Assembly: GCA_026387775.1 (NCBI GenBank)
Contig: JAPLLC010000028.1
Location: 7,154 to 56,892 of the forward strand
Length of the DNA: 49,739 nucleotides
Reading direction: 5' to 3'
From: Candidatus Methylomirabilota bacterium
GTDB lineage: Bacteria; Methylomirabilota; Methylomirabilia; Methylomirabilales; 2-02-FULL-66-22
Shown: positions 10,648-49,608 of the stretch, in pieces
Layout of the letters: each line of letters begins with the position of its first letter
How positions within the stretch are numbered: position 1 is the first letter of the stretch
Program-made: the position numbers and the translations under genes
The notes under the pieces: generated by a model
Seen by the model: only the letters and a program-made list of their open reading frames with translations
Told to the model about the DNA's origin: nothing
The model's database searches: none

Positions 10648-10987
10648 GTGGGGGACGTTGCCACGCTCGTCGCTTTCAACAGAATTCGTCCTGCCCGTTC
10701 CCGCGGGCTCGTTTCTGCTGGACGTTCGACTCGGTAAGCCGGTCACGCTTCCTCGATCCGGATCTCTCTCGACAGAGCCCGCGACGTGACCGATGGACCG
10801 CCGGGCTCTTGCTGCCCGAGCCATGAGTGGCCGATCCTTCCGGTTCCGAGGTGCACACTTCATCCAGAACGAAAACGCCGACCCTCAGCCGAGAATCGGC
10901 GCTCAATCTCTTCCAGGTTCCCCCGCGATCATCCGCCAAGCGGAACTCCTGTCCCCGACGGCCCCTTCTTGTTTCCGAATGCTTGTA
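10648..10987. repeat. About 340-bp dispersed repeat with RAYT-type end, copy 1
   Basis: Begins GTGGGGGACGTTGCCACG and ends CTTGTTTCCGAATGCTTGTA. A diverged copy in the same orientation lies at 24383-24734. The first 13 bp match the ends of the RAYT-derived elements. No protein can be recognised inside, though a GCCGA/TCGGC hairpin near the middle is conserved in both copies. Confidence 0.72.
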
Positions 10988-15129: not shown

Positions 15130-15287
15130 AACAGACTGCTGAAAAAGACCCATCTGCGGCGTTGGCACGCTGGGGCACTCGCTGCGGCGTACCTGGAGTA
15201 CGCCTCACTCGGCCCTGCGCGTGCCGCCTAGCATCTGGGCCTTTTTGAGCAGCCTGAGCGAAGCCGGGTTTTTCAGCATCCTGCTAA
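15130..15287. repeat. Palindromic dispersed repeat, copy A (reverse orientation)
   Basis: Ends AACAGACTGCTGAAAAAG and CAGCATCCTGCTAA. The interior has CATCTGCGGCGTTGGC, GCGGCGTACC and TGGGCCTTTTTGAGCAGCC. It is the reverse complement arrangement of copies B-F and is the only copy next to a gene start rather than a gene end. Confidence 0.85.
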
Positions 15288-16691: not shown

Positions 16692-17360
16692 ATGAGAGTC
16701 CTGGCGTTCAATGGCAGCCCCAGAAAGCAGTGGAACACGGCGACTCTGCTGGGGAAGGCGCTCGAAGGGGCCGCATCGCAGGGAGCGGAGACCGATCTCG
16801 TCCATCTGTATGATCTCAGCTATACCGGGTGCAGGAGCTGTTTCGCCTGCAAGACACGGGACGGCAAGAGCCATGGCCGGTGTGCGGCGCAGGACGACCT
16901 CACGCCGGTCCTGCGCAAGGTCGAGGATGCCGATGCCGTCATCCTGGGCTCCCCGATCTACTTTGGCACCGTATCTGGAATGACCAAGTCGATCATGGAG
17001 CGATTGACGTTCCCATACGTGACCTATACCGATCCGCCGCAGTCGCTGTTTCCCAAGAAGATCCAGACGGCGTTCATCTACACCATGAATGTCAGCGAAG
17101 CGCAGATGAAAGAGTATGGTTACGAGGTCCACGTCGCCCTCAACGAGAGGGTGCTGCGGACCGTCTTTGGGGCCTCGGAGTGGCTCTGCAGTTGCGACAC
17201 CTATCAGTTCGAGGATTACTCGAAGATGGCGGCGCCCCGCTTCGACGCAGAGAAGAAGGCCAAGCGACGCGCGGAGATCTTCCCCGAGGATTGTCAGAAA
17301 GCCTTTGCGCTGGGCGCGCGAATCGCCACTGTCGACACGAATCGATCACAGACTTCTTGA
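16692..17360 (+). CDS. Flavodoxin-fold NAD(P)H-dependent oxidoreductase with cysteine cluster
   Basis: The 222-residue product begins MRVLAFNGSPRKQWNTATLL, the phosphate loop of NADPH-dependent FMN reductases. A GCRSCFACK motif gives C47-x2-C50-x2-C53, with another Cys at 64; archaeal iron-sulfur flavoproteins have cysteines in nearly the same spacing, so a cluster is possible but not proven. ADAVILGSPIYFGTVSG is the flavin-binding loop. It likely passes electrons from NAD(P)H through FMN. Bases 16890-17297, covering roughly residues 67-202, are duplicated at 19237-19635, where the copy is broken. Confidence 0.85.
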   Translation: MRVLAFNGSPRKQWNTATLLGKALEGAASQGAETDLVHLYDLSYTGCRSCFACKTRDGKSHGRCAAQDDLTPVLRKVEDADAVILGSPIYFGTVSGMTKSIMERLTFPYVTYTDPPQSLFPKKIQTAFIYTMNVSEAQMKEYGYEVHVALNERVLRTVFGASEWLCSCDTYQFEDYSKMAAPRFDAEKKAKRRAEIFPEDCQKAFALGARIATVDTNRSQTS

Positions 17361-17482
17361 TCTTTCCGGCCTGATTCCCGGCTGTTCTGACAGGCTGCCG
17401 AAGACGGCCCGGCGTACCGGGAATACGCCTGGTCGCGCCTGTGGTGGGTACCCTGCTCTGCTCTCTCCGCCTGTATTCGCTC

Positions 17483-17512
17483 GAAAGTGACTAACGTGGC
17501 AACGGCCCCCGT
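17483..17512. repeat. Solo RAYT-element end
   Basis: CGAAAGTGACTAACGTGGCAACGGCCCCC matches, with few changes, the reverse complement of the start of the repeats at 10648 and 24383. Only this end is present, lying between the flavoprotein and the next module. Confidence 0.6.
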
Positions 17513-17523
17513 ACGGTAGGGTA

Positions 17524-17575
17524 TTGACAAATCGTAATCACCATAATAGTATTTCTTACACACTATAATAGTATG
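17524..17575 (+). promoter_or_regulatory. AT-rich promoter region with 22-bp-spaced direct repeats
   Basis: TTGACA occurs at 17524-17529, and ATAATAGTAT is repeated exactly at 17544-17553 and 17566-17575, two helical turns apart. TATAAT lies at 17564-17569. The region contrasts sharply in base composition with its surroundings and directly precedes the nucleotidyltransferase gene. Repeats on one face of the helix suggest binding of a cooperative repressor, possibly the winged-helix partner. Confidence 0.5.
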
Positions 17576-17592
17576 TTACAAAAGAGGGAAAC

Positions 17593-18186
17593 ATGCCGGA
17601 TAGACCAATTGCCGCCATCGAGCGGGGGCTGGCGTCGGTCGGGGAGCTGCTTGCGATCGACGGGGTCGAGGTGGGGATCGCCGTCGTAGGCGGAACAGCT
17701 CTGAACCTGCTCGGCATCGTGCAACGGACGACGAGCGACGTGGATGTGCTGGCCGTCCTCCGGACCGGGAGCGATCCTCCAGGGGGGACGTTGGTTCCAC
17801 CTGACCCTCTCCCAGAGCCGCTTCAGCGGGCCATTGCCCGAGTCGCCAGGGACTTCCAGCTTCCACCGGATTGGATGAACACCGTCGTGGGGCTCCAATG
17901 GCAAACAGGGCTTCCGCCGGGCCTGGCCGGACGACTGCACTGGCGGCGCTATGGCGGGCTTCGGGTGGGGCTCGTGGATCGCTATGACCTCATCTTCTTG
18001 AAGCTCTACGCATCGGCGGATAGCGGGGGCCCGACCAGCGTGCATGTCCAGGATCTTCTCGCCTTGCACCCGTCCGAACGCGACCTGGAGACTGCGGCGG
18101 CATGGGTCCGGGAACAGGACCCGACGCCCGCGTTTGCCGGCATCCTTACCGAGGTGACGACCTATGTCCGTCAGCGGCTTGGGTAA
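17593..18186 (+). CDS. Nucleotidyltransferase-fold protein (AbiEii/DUF6036-like), putative toxin
   Basis: The 197-residue protein starts at ATG 17593 after GAGGGAAAC. It has the nucleotidyltransferase hallmark: VVGGTALNLLG (G33-G34) followed by TTSDVDVLAVL with the D49-x-D51 metal-binding pair. YDLIFLKLYASADSGG and the VQDLLALHPSERDL segment are typical of the DUF6036/AbiEii-like branch. Such enzymes can act as toxins that transfer nucleotides to tRNA or protein, but many remain untested. The next gene overlaps by 23 bp and encodes a winged-helix protein, giving a toxin-antitoxin-like arrangement. The module is flanked by a duplicated fragment of the neighbouring flavoprotein gene. Confidence 0.78.
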   Translation: MPDRPIAAIERGLASVGELLAIDGVEVGIAVVGGTALNLLGIVQRTTSDVDVLAVLRTGSDPPGGTLVPPDPLPEPLQRAIARVARDFQLPPDWMNTVVGLQWQTGLPPGLAGRLHWRRYGGLRVGLVDRYDLIFLKLYASADSGGPTSVHVQDLLALHPSERDLETAAAWVREQDPTPAFAGILTEVTTYVRQRLG

Positions 18187-19099
18187 TGCCACACGCCACT
18201 TACAGGAGCGGACGCTCGGTGTCCTGTGGCGCCAGTGGGGAACGCTTGGCGCATCGACCGCCAGCCATCCTGCGCGGAGCCTGATAGACCCCGAGGCGCT
18301 GGTGCTGGCCTCGCTGGCGTTTCAGGACGAGGAGCGCCGCCTGGCGGACGTGCTGCGCTGGTGGGCCACGACCGGAGCGCCCCTCCTGAGTGTCACCCGG
18401 ATTCGCAACCTGGCGCGTCGGTTCCCCGATCCGGTCCGCGATCGTCTGGGAGAATTCGCGGCCTGCGCGCTCGGCGAGGGCCGGGACTTCCGCTGGCGGC
18501 CGCTCGCCCGCCCCTCCGGCAGGCCGGCGGGACGGCGGGGGAAAACGCTGGGCAGGGAGCCGAGAGTCCTCGCCCCGCCCGCCCTCCTGCTCCGGCTCCG
18601 CCTCGGCTTCGGTGTTGCCGTCAAGGCCGATCTCCTCGCGATGCTCCTGGGATCGCCCGGGGGCTGGCTTTCAGTGCGGGAGATCGCGGCGCCGCTCGGC
18701 TACACGACGCAGTCGATCCGGCGCGCCGCGGACGATCTGGTGGCGGCCCGGCTGGTCCAGGCGACGCGCGAAGCGCCGACCGGATACCGGCTAGACCCAA
18801 AACCCTGGGCCGCGCTGCTGGGCACGCGAGCGAAACTCCCGCCCTGGCGCCACTGGGTCCCGGTGTTCGCCTTCGTGACAGCGCTCGCCGCGTGGATGCA
18901 CGGCGCGGCCGACCCCAAACAGGCGAGCAACTACGTGCTGAGCTCACAAGTGCGGGACATCGTGGAAAGCCACCAGGAGGCCTTCGTGCGGAACCGGCTC
19001 GCGATCCCCCGGCCGGAGGACTACCCTGGGGAAACATACCTCGCCGCCTTTCGCGACACCCTGGCAGTGTTGGGTATCTGGCTCGACGAGAGCGCGTAG
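18164..19099 (+). CDS. Winged-helix protein, putative antitoxin/regulator partner of the nucleotidyltransferase
   Basis: The 311-residue product starts at ATG 18164, inside the upstream gene. Residues about 148-210 form a clear winged helix: LLAMLLGSPGGWLSVREIAA, PLGYTTQSIRRAADDLVAAR, then a wing with PTGYRLDP. Helical regions on both sides, including a hydrophobic FAFVTALAAWM near residue 240, are not recognised. The close overlap implies coupled translation. I infer that it represses the promoter at 17524-17575 and perhaps neutralises the enzyme. I know of no named system with exactly this pair, so it may be an uncharacterised toxin-antitoxin or defence module. Confidence 0.65.
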   Translation: MSVSGLGNATRHLQERTLGVLWRQWGTLGASTASHPARSLIDPEALVLASLAFQDEERRLADVLRWWATTGAPLLSVTRIRNLARRFPDPVRDRLGEFAACALGEGRDFRWRPLARPSGRPAGRRGKTLGREPRVLAPPALLLRLRLGFGVAVKADLLAMLLGSPGGWLSVREIAAPLGYTTQSIRRAADDLVAARLVQATREAPTGYRLDPKPWAALLGTRAKLPPWRHWVPVFAFVTALAAWMHGAADPKQASNYVLSSQVRDIVESHQEAFVRNRLAIPRPEDYPGETYLAAFRDTLAVLGIWLDESA

Positions 19100-19236
19100 G
19101 AGCGAGGAATGACGGGACGTAGGATTATCTGTCTCTATGGGTTCGTGGGGGACTCCACGTTCAACGTTACACCTTCCGTCCCTATGGGTGCGTAGGGAAT
19201 AGTCAGATATGACACATAATGCCGGTCCCCAATTAC

Positions 19237-19635
19237 AGGACGACCTCACGCCGGTCCTGCGCAAGGTCGAGGATGCCGATGCCGTCATCCTGGGCTCTCC
19301 GATCTACTTTGGCACCGTTTCTGGAATGACCAAGTCGTTCATGGAGCGATTGACGTTCCCATACGTGACCTATACCGATCCGCCGCAGTCGCTGTTTCCC
19401 GGGAAGATCCGGACGGCCGTGATCTACACCATGAATGTCAGCGAAACGCAGATGAAAGAGTATGGCTACGGGGCCCCTCAACGAGAGGGTGCTGCGGACC
19501 GTCTTCGGGGCCTCGGAGTGGCTCTGCAGTTGCGACACCTATCAGTTCGAGGATTACTCGAAGATGGTCGCACCCCGCTTCGACGCAGAGAAGAAGGCCA
19601 AGCGACGCGCGGAGATCTTCCCCGAAGATTGTCAG
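19237..19635 (+). pseudogene. Broken partial duplicate of the flavoprotein gene
   Basis: The sequence from CAGGACGACCTCACGCC to GATTGTCAGA repeats 16890-17297 with only scattered substitutions. After GAAAGAGTATGGCTACG it has lost 8 bp, which shifts the frame. The start of the gene, including the flavin phosphate loop and the cysteine cluster, is absent, and the 3' end runs into unrelated sequence. It cannot encode a working enzyme. The interval to the next gene (19636-19864) has nothing I can identify. Confidence 0.88.
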
Positions 19636-19864
19636 ATGGCGCGAGGCCGGGTGATCGACCTGCTGGGCAGGCCGCCAGACCCCAGGCGCGGGCCCATGGC
19701 GGGTGGCGGGCGGGAATACTCCTTGCGGTCCACCGGCACGTCCCGTATAAAGAAACCCGTTGCGGGGCCCGGCATCCGGGCTGCAGGTCTCGGTTTTCTG
19801 AGCTATCTGATTGCCGAATTGCCTGATTGCCAGGCCGCCTTGCCGTCCCGGCACCGGAGTCTCC

Positions 19865-22840: not shown

Positions 22841-23000
22841 TCAGCAGGCTCCTGAACAACCCGATCTCGCTCAGGCTGCTCAAAAAGGTCCAGATGCAAG
22901 GCGGCGCGCGATGGGCCGAGTGAGGCGTACACTGGGTACGCCGCAGCGAGTGCCCGAGCAAGCCAACGCAGCAGATGGGCCTTTTTCAGCAGCCTGCTAA
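22841..23000. repeat. Palindromic dispersed repeat, copy B
   Basis: Full-length form: TCAGCAGGCTCCTGAAC at the left, AGGCTGCTCAAAAAGG, CCGAGTGAGGCGTACAC, GTACGCCGCAGCGAG, then GCCTTTTTCAGCAGCCTGCTA at the right. It ends one base before the stop codon of the leftward dehydrogenase gene at 23002. Confidence 0.88.
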
Positions 23001-24382: not shown

Positions 24383-24734
24383 ATGGGGGACGTTGCCACG
24401 TTCGTCACTTTCAACAGAATTCGCCCTGCCGCTTTGCACGAAGGCTTGTTTCTCCGGACGTGTGACTCGGTCGACCGGTCACGCCTCCTTGATCCGGACG
24501 TCGCCCAACAGAACTCGCGACGTGGCCGATGAACCGCCAGGTTCTTGCAGCCCAAGCCATGAGTGGCCGATCCTTCCGTTTCCGTGGTGCATATTTCGCC
24601 CAGAACAAGAAACGCCGACCCTTTGGCGAGGATCGGCGCTCAATCTGATCGAGCTGTTCCAGGCTCCCCCGCGATCATCCGACATGCGGAACTCCACTCC
24701 CCGAGGGCACCCTTCTTGTTTCCGAATGCTTGTA
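24383..24734. repeat. About 350-bp dispersed repeat with RAYT-type end, copy 2
   Basis: Diverged copy of 10648-10987, in the same orientation, from ATGGGGGACGTTGCCACG to TTTCCGAATGCTTGTA. Conserved blocks include GAGTGGCCGATCCTTCCG and TCCCCCGCGATCATCCG. The stretch 24735-24861 contains nothing else identifiable. Confidence 0.72.
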
Positions 24735-30741: not shown

Positions 30742-30935
30742 GGCAGGATACTGAAGAACTCGTTTCGCCCAGCCTGCTCAAAAAGGTCCAGATGCAAGGC
30801 GGCTCGCCGGGTACCCATCCGCAGGATGGGTGCAGGCGCGAGACGTACTTCGCGTACGTCGCAGCGCCGCGCGAGCGTGCGGGGTACCCACCAAAGGTGG
30901 GTCTCCGCAGATGGGCCTCTTTCAGCAGCCTGTTA
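30742..30935. repeat. Palindromic dispersed repeat, copy C (expanded)
   Basis: Carries the family ends (GGCAGGATACTGAAGAACTC; TTTCAGCAGCCTGTTA), but the middle is replaced by extra hairpins GGGTACCCATCC...GGATGGGT and GGGTACCCACC...GGTGGGT. Its last three bases (TTA) are the stop codon of the amidohydrolase fragment. The preceding 30540-30741 contains nothing I can identify. Confidence 0.82.
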
Positions 30936-42728: not shown

Positions 42729-42857
42729 AACAGGCTGCTCAAAAGGGCCCAGATGCAAGGCGGCGCGCGTAAGGCCGAGTGAGGCGTACTGGGGTACGCC
42801 GCAACGAGTGCCTAAGCAAGCCAACGCAGCAGATGGGCCTTTTTCAGCAGCCTGCTA
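42729..42857. repeat. Palindromic dispersed repeat, copy D (short form)
   Basis: Begins AACAGGCTGCTCAAAAGGGC, lacking the first arm of the long form, and ends TTTTTCAGCAGCCTGCTA. Its final CTA is the TAG stop of the leftward SDR gene. Its core is nearly identical to copy E, so the two may be recent copies. Confidence 0.88.
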
Positions 42858-44396: not shown

Positions 44397-44552
44397 AGCG
44401 GGCTGCTGGAATATCCACTTTCGCCCAGGCTGCTCAAAAAGGTCCAGATGCAAGGCGGCGCGCGTAAGGCCGAGTGAGGCGTACTGGGGTACGCCGCAAC
44501 GAGTGCCTAAGCAAGCCAACGCAGCAGATGGGCCTTTTTCAGCAGCCTGTTA
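44397..44552. repeat. Palindromic dispersed repeat, copy E
   Basis: Long form, from AGCGGGCTGCTGGAATATCC to TTTTTCAGCAGCCTGTTA. The terminal TTA is the stop codon of the SirB1-like gene. It separates that gene from the adenosyltransferase. Confidence 0.88.
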
Positions 44553-45404
44553 GTTCAGCGCCACCACCCGCTGGCGGAGGCTGCGCAGGTGCTCGCGGAT
44601 CACCCCGCTGTCTTCCGCCTCGGGAACCAGCCGCAGGTACCGTTCCAGATCGGCGCTCGCGTCGGCATAGCGCTTGAGCTGGCACGAGAGCAGCCCGCGG
44701 TCCCGGATCTCGCTCGCCGTCTGCGGCTGCAGGATCACCAGGCGCTCCACGATGGACAGCGCCTTGGCGTATTCCTGATTGTTGAAGTAGATCATCTTCA
44801 GGTTGGTGAGCATCCGGGCCAGGATCTGCCGGGTGCCGACGGTGGCGAGCATTCCCCGCTCGAAGCAGAGCTTCCCGCCGTAGATTCGATCCAGGATGCG
44901 CTGATAGTCCGGATTCGAGAGGATCCTGCCGCCGCCGAACGGATCGACCACGATCTCCTCGTCCCGCCCCTCGTATTTGACCAGGAAATGGCCGGGCATG
45001 CCGACCCCGTGCAGGGGGAACCCGATGCGCCGCGCGGCCTCCAGGTAGACCGCGGAGAGCGTGATGGGAATCCCGATGCGCCGGTCCAGCACCTCGTTCA
45101 GGAAGCTGTTCTTGGGATCGTAGTAGTTCTCCGGGTTTCCGCGGAATCCCAGCCGCTGGAACAGATGCTCGTTCAGGGCGGCGATCAGCCGATGGGGGTC
45201 CAGGCTCCCATCCGCCAGCCGCTGCACTTCCTCGCCCATGGCATCCAACCGCGCGAGATAGACCGCCACGTCCAGATCCGGGTACTCCTCCTTGGCGATG
45301 AGCAGCGCGGCCTGCGCAAGGTCGATGGCAACCTCCGGCCCCTGGACCAGTTGCGCGAAGGCCAGACGACAGGGCGGTGGCATGTCTTCCGCGTGTTTGG
45401 ACAT
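44550..45404 (-). CDS. SirB1-like transglutaminase-fold protein with TPR tail
   Basis: The 284-residue protein starts MSKHAEDMPP. The N-terminal part has LNEHLFQRLGFRGNPENYYDP, FLNEVLDRRIGIPITLSAVYLE and GVGMPGHFLVKYEG, the signature of the SirB1/TPR_9 family; the usual transglutaminase cysteine is not present in the IPITLS segment. C-terminal helices (RMLTNLKMIYFNNQEYAKAL, CQLKRYADASADLERYLRL) form TPR-like repeats. Function in bacteria is poorly known, and binding to a partner rather than catalysis is likely. Its stop lies within repeat copy E. Confidence 0.88.
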   Translation of the reverse strand: MSKHAEDMPPPCRLAFAQLVQGPEVAIDLAQAALLIAKEEYPDLDVAVYLARLDAMGEEVQRLADGSLDPHRLIAALNEHLFQRLGFRGNPENYYDPKNSFLNEVLDRRIGIPITLSAVYLEAARRIGFPLHGVGMPGHFLVKYEGRDEEIVVDPFGGGRILSNPDYQRILDRIYGGKLCFERGMLATVGTRQILARMLTNLKMIYFNNQEYAKALSIVERLVILQPQTASEIRDRGLLSCQLKRYADASADLERYLRLVPEAEDSGVIREHLRSLRQRVVALN

Positions 45405-49161: not shown

Positions 49162-49430
49162 GACCGGTGCAGCGCACTAGGTACAGACGGACACAAATTC
49201 GATGACGTATACGTTGGCCGGATAAATCCAGGTCCCCCGGGCCGACCCGAGACGCCGCGCCACACCCATCCCATGGATGGGTACCCGGCTCCCCCGTCCC
49301 CGGCACGGAGGTCCGCTCCCCGAGCGGACCGACCCGGGGTAAGGGCGAGCCGGCATCGACGAGGCGCTAGGCGTTCGAGGGGCGGTCCGGGGGACCGGCG
49401 ATACGTCACCGTAATTGCGGATAGGAGCAC
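49162..49430. other. Structured intergenic stretch
   Basis: No gene. Perfect hairpins are visible: CCCATCC-CAT-GGATGGG near 49267 and GGTCCGCT...AGCGGACC near 49312. GGGTACCC sequences resemble the extra hairpins inside repeat copies C and F. A structured RNA cannot be excluded. Confidence 0.35.
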
Positions 49431-49608
49431 TAGCAGGGTGCTGAAAAACTCACTTTTCGGCAGGCTGCTCAAAAGGGCCCAGATGCTAGGCGGCCCGCGA
49501 AGGGCCGAGTGAGGCGTACTACAGGTACGCCGCAGCGAGTGTCCGAGCGGGCGGGTACCCAGCCGCAGGCTGGGTGACCGCAGATGGGTCTTTTTCAGCA
49601 GCCTGCTA
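49431..49608. repeat. Palindromic dispersed repeat, copy F (expanded)
   Basis: From TAGCAGGGTGCTGAAAAACT to TTTTTCAGCAGCCTGCTA, both ends intact and complementary. The middle carries an extra GGGTACCCAGCC...GGCTGGGT hairpin as in copy C. Its last CTA is the stop of the leftward partial gene. Confidence 0.88.

Follow-up and report, generated by a model that had tools for sequence, protein, structure and literature searches.

A nucleotidyltransferase/winged-helix gene pair from an NC10 bacterium, probably a mobile cassette of toxin-antitoxin type under its own repressor

Layout of the locus

The window, i.e., the whole stretch of 49,739 nucleotides analyzed here (Candidatus Methylomirabilota bacterium, assembly GCA_026387775.1, contig JAPLLC010000028.1, positions 7,154 to 56,892), contains two overlapping genes lying between a flavoprotein gene and a second, partial copy of the same gene. 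The original prediction regarded the gene pair as a mobile toxin-antitoxin or defence cassette matching no named system. The features concerned are as follows.

16692..17360, + strand: complete flavoprotein gene (FMN-reductase-like), 222 aa (PF03358 FMN_red, E 3.3e-22)
16890..17298, + strand: left copy of the 409-bp direct repeat, inside the complete flavoprotein gene (self-alignment)
17524..17529, + strand: putative -35 hexamer TTGACA (read from the sequence)
17539..17551, + strand: putative operator site 1, CACCATAATAGTA, 22 bp before site 2, with a like layout in relatives
17561..17573, + strand: putative operator site 2, CACTATAATAGTA, a near-palindrome, with a like layout in relatives
17593..18186, + strand: nucleotidyltransferase (NTase) gene, 197 aa, DUF6036/AbiEii-like (domain models, alignment, AlphaFold, Foldseek)
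18164..18186, + strand: 23-nt overlap of the NTase and winged-helix genes (ORF coordinates)
18164..19099, + strand: predicted winged-helix (wHTH) repressor and putative antitoxin, 311 aa (PF12802 MarR_2, E 3.6e-8, residues 155-204)
19236..19636, + strand: right copy of the direct repeat, a flavoprotein gene fragment with both ends missing and an 8-bp deletion

The two repeat copies (16890-17298 and 19236-19636) align over 409 columns with 94.1% identity (E 1e-177), and both overlapping genes (17593-18186 and 18164-19099) sit between them; of 15 control windows, picked at random from the same genome set and similar in size, 0 had a comparable enclosing repeat. The enclosure of the module by direct repeats thus stands as predicted. 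The accompanying description of "duplicated halves" stands only as regards the duplication, since the left copy belongs to a complete gene and the right copy alone is a fragment, its reading frame broken by the 8-bp deletion.

Conservation and distribution of the gene pair

The two ORFs of the window share 23 nt. In all 21 relatives from NC10 and Chloroflexota whose contigs are long enough, the NTase occurs with the same winged-helix partner; the NTase gene comes first in every one of these loci, and the overlap is 11-23 nt where measured. For instance, locus L014 has an identical 23-nt overlap in an unrelated place, with a vapB-like gene adjoining (by eye). In L015 (Anaerolineales), the two members of the pair show 55% and 37% identity, and the overlap is 20 nt. 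Apart from the window and L014, all measured overlaps fall within 11-20 nt. On this comparison of gene content and order, the NTase and winged-helix genes are a real, obligate pair, and the view of the overlapping genes as one unit is upheld; the outcome named beforehand as refuting, that the genes would rarely occur together, did not arise. Both genes are under purifying selection, with dN/dS of about 0.13 for the NTase and about 0.29 for the wHTH protein between the window and L014; over the same comparison, dN is 0.35 for the wHTH protein versus 0.17 for the NTase, so the former evolves faster.

The relatives were found by several searches. Scanning GTDB contigs with the single wHTH sequence gave no relatives, whereas a scan with an NTase alignment found two; the same-genus relative in GTDB belongs to NC10 (Methylomirabilota). 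When 400 Chloroflexota genomes were searched with a profile, 11 more close NTases came up, each followed by the same winged-helix protein, and a second search (177 genomes) brought additional pair loci. The more distant DUF6036-like NTases (L029-L046) occur without the winged-helix partner. Only 2 of 95 NC10 genomes of the phylum carry the pair, and plasmid records, phage records, and viral contigs contain no relatives of the queries tried. Separately, a solitary C-terminal remnant of a winged-helix protein lies beside an AAA-type-ATPase-like gene in another genome (G001, L003:1449-1892), and was probably left behind by a further copy of the pair that has since been lost.

Active-site residues of the nucleotidyltransferase

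Across 13 NTases of the family, the GG pair (G33, G34), R45, T47, D49, D51, K137, A140, and D154 are invariant. The window protein scores 19.1 bits against DUF6036 (PF19502; gathering score 23.6) and 16.2 bits against AbiEii (PF08843; cut-off 22.5); among the family members, DUF6036 matches 13 of 13 at E<=0.1 (best 2.3e-9) and AbiEii matches 5 of 13 at E<=0.1 (best 4e-8). The AlphaFold model of the NTase has a pLDDT of 75, and Foldseek returns weak matches to Rv1045 (MenT3), MenT1, and ANT(2''), none passing E 0.001; the best prokaryotic matches are the MenT toxins, and ANT(2'')-Ia stands at E 0.86. It has been reported that MenT1 has the residues T39, D41, K137, and D152, of which T39 is the site of antitoxin-induced autophosphorylation (PMC11375011). 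T47, D49, K137, and D154 of the window protein are their counterparts, a correspondence made by motif, without significant sequence alignment.

Winged-helix partner and its putative operator

MarR_2 is found in 12 of 15 partner proteins, while the AbiEi Pfam models match none of the 15, and no HEPN or nuclease domain is found in any of them. The AlphaFold model of the wHTH protein is poor (pLDDT 49) and unfit for a structure search.

Upstream of the NTase gene, TAGTAT follows TTGACA after 17 bp and overlaps operator site 1. The core motif of the two sites is found nowhere else in the window. Both the motif and the 22-bp distance recur in L014 and L015; in other lineages the site sequence varies (AAGATTGACTCTT, GGATGTAACATCC, and others) and the distance remains constant. 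A lag of 22 ranks top in 14 of 17 loci, with a summed score of 148 against a mean of 89.4 (sd 6.5; z 9), these 17 loci being not fully independent because some of them are related. The helically phased repeats of the original prediction are therefore real and form a conserved, putative operator. In the L052 group, site 2 overlaps the TTGACT of a TTGACT-N17-TA..GT promoter (read from the sequence). In a genome-wide scan allowing three mismatches, the site pair occurs exactly once per genome in 3 of 3 genomes, at the NTase promoter, and the reversed control gives 0. Since the site pair is single in each genome and stands at the pair's own promoter, the wHTH partner is most simply explained as a dedicated autorepressor predicted to bind there. 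One operator-pattern match in a viral contig was set aside as chance, having neither an NTase nor a wHTH ORF beside it. Directly upstream of the operator region of the window, a dispersed repeat of about 63 bp (17410-17473) belongs to a set of more than 30 copies in the genome.

Integrative elements in relatives

Among 19 Chloroflexota loci, 7 have a tRNA half directly repeated on both sides of the pair. Of the first 12 Chloroflexota loci, 7 have a tRNA gene no more than 1.5 kb away from the pair, compared with 4 tRNAs in 219 kb of control stretches. In L052, L055, and L099 (the repeats of L099 contain assembly gaps), a second copy of the 5' half of tRNA-Gly(ccc) lies past the pair; the same holds for the 5' half of tRNA-Ala in L102 and for the 3' half of tRNA-Thr in L054 and L060. 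Both ends of L059 are tRNA 3'-half sequences, probably of tRNA-Arg. In L052, L055, and L099, a tyrosine recombinase gene (PF00589, E about 1e-23 in L052 and L055) stands directly upstream of the NTase, so that tRNA-half repeats and recombinase, the marks of a tRNA-targeting integrative element, are found together at these three loci. L059 has an integrase-domain ORF inside its repeats, and the repeats of L054, L060, and L102 come without an integrase. The three elements with both marks are listed below.

L052:5751-8665: integrase-NTase-wHTH element at tRNA-Gly(ccc), repeats and recombinase
L055:2315-7117: integrase-NTase-wHTH element at tRNA-Gly(ccc), repeats and recombinase
L099:6092-8958: integrase-NTase-wHTH element at tRNA-Gly(ccc), repeats and recombinase

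The complete L052 element measures 2.9 kb and consists of the integrase, NTase, and wHTH genes and nothing else, while the L060 element (1.85 kb) contains just the pair. In the class, 49 of 177 genomes have this integrase family, with about 73 copies in all, beside many different tRNAs. Of 20 copies inspected, 19 adjoin the tRNA 5' end; most copies lack this gene pair. For instance, a closely related integrase in L153 (2255-3675) and L154 (6429-8086) is accompanied by an HTH gene and then an ORF that has no Pfam match but shows, by eye, the NTase-like motif GG...R-x-T-x-D-x-D. Besides the pair, L055 bears HTH and PIN genes. The pair is thus one of several toxin-antitoxin-like cargoes.

Two candidates were left out of the count of enclosed loci: the 176-bp repeat around the pair in L051 was rejected as an att site because it consists of short palindromic intergenic repeats in an array, and in L057 the tRNA and its fragment are both on one side of the pair, leaving the pair unenclosed. 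Arrays of the palindrome TGATCGGTGCCACCGATCA flank the pair on both sides in L051 (4340-4514 and 7351-7525).

Origin of the window copy

There is no tRNA in the window, and no integrase match in the window or the upstream contig. The combination of tRNA-half repeats and tyrosine recombinase is thus absent here, the repeat being a flavoprotein fragment; the predicted mobility holds for relatives on small integrative elements, but not directly for the window copy, which has neither a tRNA att site nor an integrase. Like the tRNA elements, the window copy is flanked by a complete gene at one end and by a piece of that gene at the other. With one gene copy complete, the right copy decayed, and no tRNA att site or integrase near, the way in which the pair arrived is inferred: it may fairly be taken to have integrated at the flavoprotein gene, displacing the old 3' part. 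No empty site for the insertion was found among the other genomes of the phylum, because the flavoprotein gene has no close relative in them (no match at E<=1e-30 in 94 genomes).

Another explanation, with a probability somewhat short of even, is that the repeat has nothing to do with integration and that part of the flavoprotein gene was duplicated in situ, or that the repeat is a scar of homologous recombination or an assembly artefact of strain mixing. In favour of this, both ends are missing from the right copy, including the 3' end of the gene, which would remain after a simple integration; the assembly is a fragmented draft of 312 contigs with 6.2% contamination; and no integrase or tRNA lies near the repeat. 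Against this, several unrelated loci likewise have the pair between direct repeats, an arrangement seen in none of the 15 controls, the gene/fragment topology matches that of the tRNA elements, and the two copies differ mainly at synonymous sites (8.5/88 synonymous versus 8.5/308 nonsynonymous), as expected for alleles of two lineages.

The window also contains a second direct repeat (10649-10987 and 24384-24734; 352 columns, 83%), enclosing 13.7 kb including the pair. In addition, a dispersed intergenic repeat of about 65-150 bp is present in several copies in both orientations.

15132-15285, 22843-22996, 42731-42854, 44421-44562, 49429-49549, and 30743-30807, both orientations: copies of the dispersed intergenic repeat

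Proposed mechanism and alternative explanations

Taken together, the locus is probably an autoregulated two-gene module of toxin-antitoxin type, carried as a mobile cassette, and by analogy the pair most likely works like the NTase toxin-antitoxin systems of the AbiE/MenAT type. Toxin-antitoxin is the best reading because of the predicted autoregulation and translational coupling, the invariant residues, the mobile context, and the neighbours rich in toxin-antitoxin genes; toxicity, neutralization, and the biochemical target are what we infer from these. The NTase, the probable toxin, would be translated first and would act like MenT or AbiEii, adding nucleotides to RNA or another target. The winged-helix protein, translationally coupled to it through the gene overlap, would probably dimerize on each of the two sites, 22 bp or two helical turns apart, and shut the sole promoter that it controls. 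It would also neutralize the NTase, perhaps in a MenA-like manner by autophosphorylation of the NTase on the conserved Thr before DxD. Counted against the toxin-antitoxin cassette are the NTase scores below the AbiEii and DUF6036 cut-offs, the missing motif III arginine, a partner without AbiEi similarity and with a poor model, the lack of a nearby tRNA or integrase in the window, and, as regards a recent transfer into the source genome, the sparse distribution (2/95 NC10 genomes).

The pair could instead be a regulated enzyme without toxin-antitoxin function, in which a MarR-type repressor controls an NTase whose substrate is a small molecule or metabolite (for example, an aminoglycoside-like compound or a nucleotide pool). 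The MarR_2-like wHTH protein, the operator at its own promoter only, and the weak listing of ANT(2'')-Ia by Foldseek (E 0.86) agree with this, but obligate pairing with a short overlap, the cargo position on tRNA elements, and the neighbours (HEPN/MNT, PIN, Phd) fit toxin-antitoxin better, and the top prokaryotic structural matches are MenT toxins; we consider a regulated enzyme unlikely. A phage-defence cassette acting by abortive infection, in which infection frees the NTase from the wHTH protein, is compatible with the toxin-antitoxin mechanism and differs in the selected role. The AbiE precedent (PMC3985639), the cargo position on mobile elements, and the defence-type neighbours that some relatives have, among them the MTase/VapBC locus of L015, point in this direction; with no PADLOC system recognized at useful scores, such a role is rated at roughly one chance in eight. 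Most improbable is an exchange of roles, with the NTase as antitoxin and the winged-helix protein as toxin, as when MntA adenylylates HepT (PMC7641770). The HEPN/MNT precedent and the faster evolution of the wHTH protein (dN 0.35 versus 0.17) would suit it, but none of the 15 wHTH proteins has a nuclease or HEPN domain, and a dedicated operator argues for a repressor, the usual antitoxin role.

Building on the toxin-antitoxin reading, we tentatively suggest, as a possibility on the doubtful side, that the pair serves a very small, self-contained integrative element of 2.9 kb as cargo and as maintenance system at once, the element being made up of a tRNA-targeting recombinase and an NTase toxin with its repressor. 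The recognition sequence of the repressor would have changed repeatedly while the two sites stayed 22 bp apart, so that elements resident together are not cross-regulated. If true, the 2.9 kb element would be among the smallest self-contained integrative elements. The relatives also reveal a compact mobile element of little-studied phyla with the pair as its sole cargo. The NTase/winged-helix family has no name and is missed by the current Pfam, NCBIfam, PADLOC, and PHROGs models. The single dedicated operator per genome offers a clear experimental handle, and the operator series, in which the sequence changes while the geometry is fixed, provides ready-made material for studying how repressor specificity evolves.

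Comparison with known systems

Among the closest described systems is the type IV AbiE system, which likewise has a polymerase-beta-type NTase with hGG...R-x3-DhD, a conserved Lys, and a late Asp (PMC3985639), a winged-helix partner, and paired promoter repeats, which in AbiE are autoregulatory (PMC3985639; PMC7319586). In broad fold terms, the NTase groups with AbiEii. Motifs I and II (hGG ... R-x3-DhD) are present, with G33, G34, R45, D49, and D51 invariant in 13 sequences. For motif III (KLxAaxxR) and motif IV (Asp), K137, A140, and D154 are invariant, but the motif III Arg is absent, and 14 residues separate G34 and D49 versus x15 in the consensus (PMC3985639). In AbiE the regulator gene precedes the toxin gene, whereas here the NTase gene is first; AbiE has 23-bp inverted repeats, whereas here there are two 13-bp near-palindromes 22 bp apart. 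With the order reversed, a partner not detectably AbiEi (COG5340), and an NTase of about 197 aa below the AbiEii cut-off, the pair is, by these sequence comparisons, not AbiE by membership. The claim that no named system matches is therefore sustained at curated cut-offs, and the pair did not turn out to be a well-described AbiE system.

PADLOC matched no system at useful scores. The PADLOC system PDC-M05 pairs an NTase with a HEPN protein (PMC12988326), and its M05A models match only the HTH region of the wHTH proteins; as none of the 15 partners has HEPN, identity with PDC-M05 or HEPN-MNT was rejected. DUF6036 (PF19502) matches all 13 NTases, with the window protein under the gathering score; it is a family without described function, and no paper naming it was found in the literature search. 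MenAT of M. tuberculosis shares a small NTase, a Thr/Ser two residues before DxD, and matching Lys and Asp positions (PMC11375011), the phospho-acceptor position being occupied by T47, invariant in 13 sequences. It differs in that no MenT structure gives a significant sequence match and its partner is unrelated at the sequence level as far as compared. Similarly, PygAT is an NTase/regulator toxin-antitoxin pair in an integrase island, the tRNA-Gln island PYG1 of Pyrococcus yayanosii (PMC5126054). PYG1 is a 21-kb mosaic island bounded by 43-bp tRNA repeats, and the PygAT partner belongs to COG5340 (PMC5126054), whereas the L052 element carries its integrase, NTase, and wHTH genes alone within 2.9 kb.
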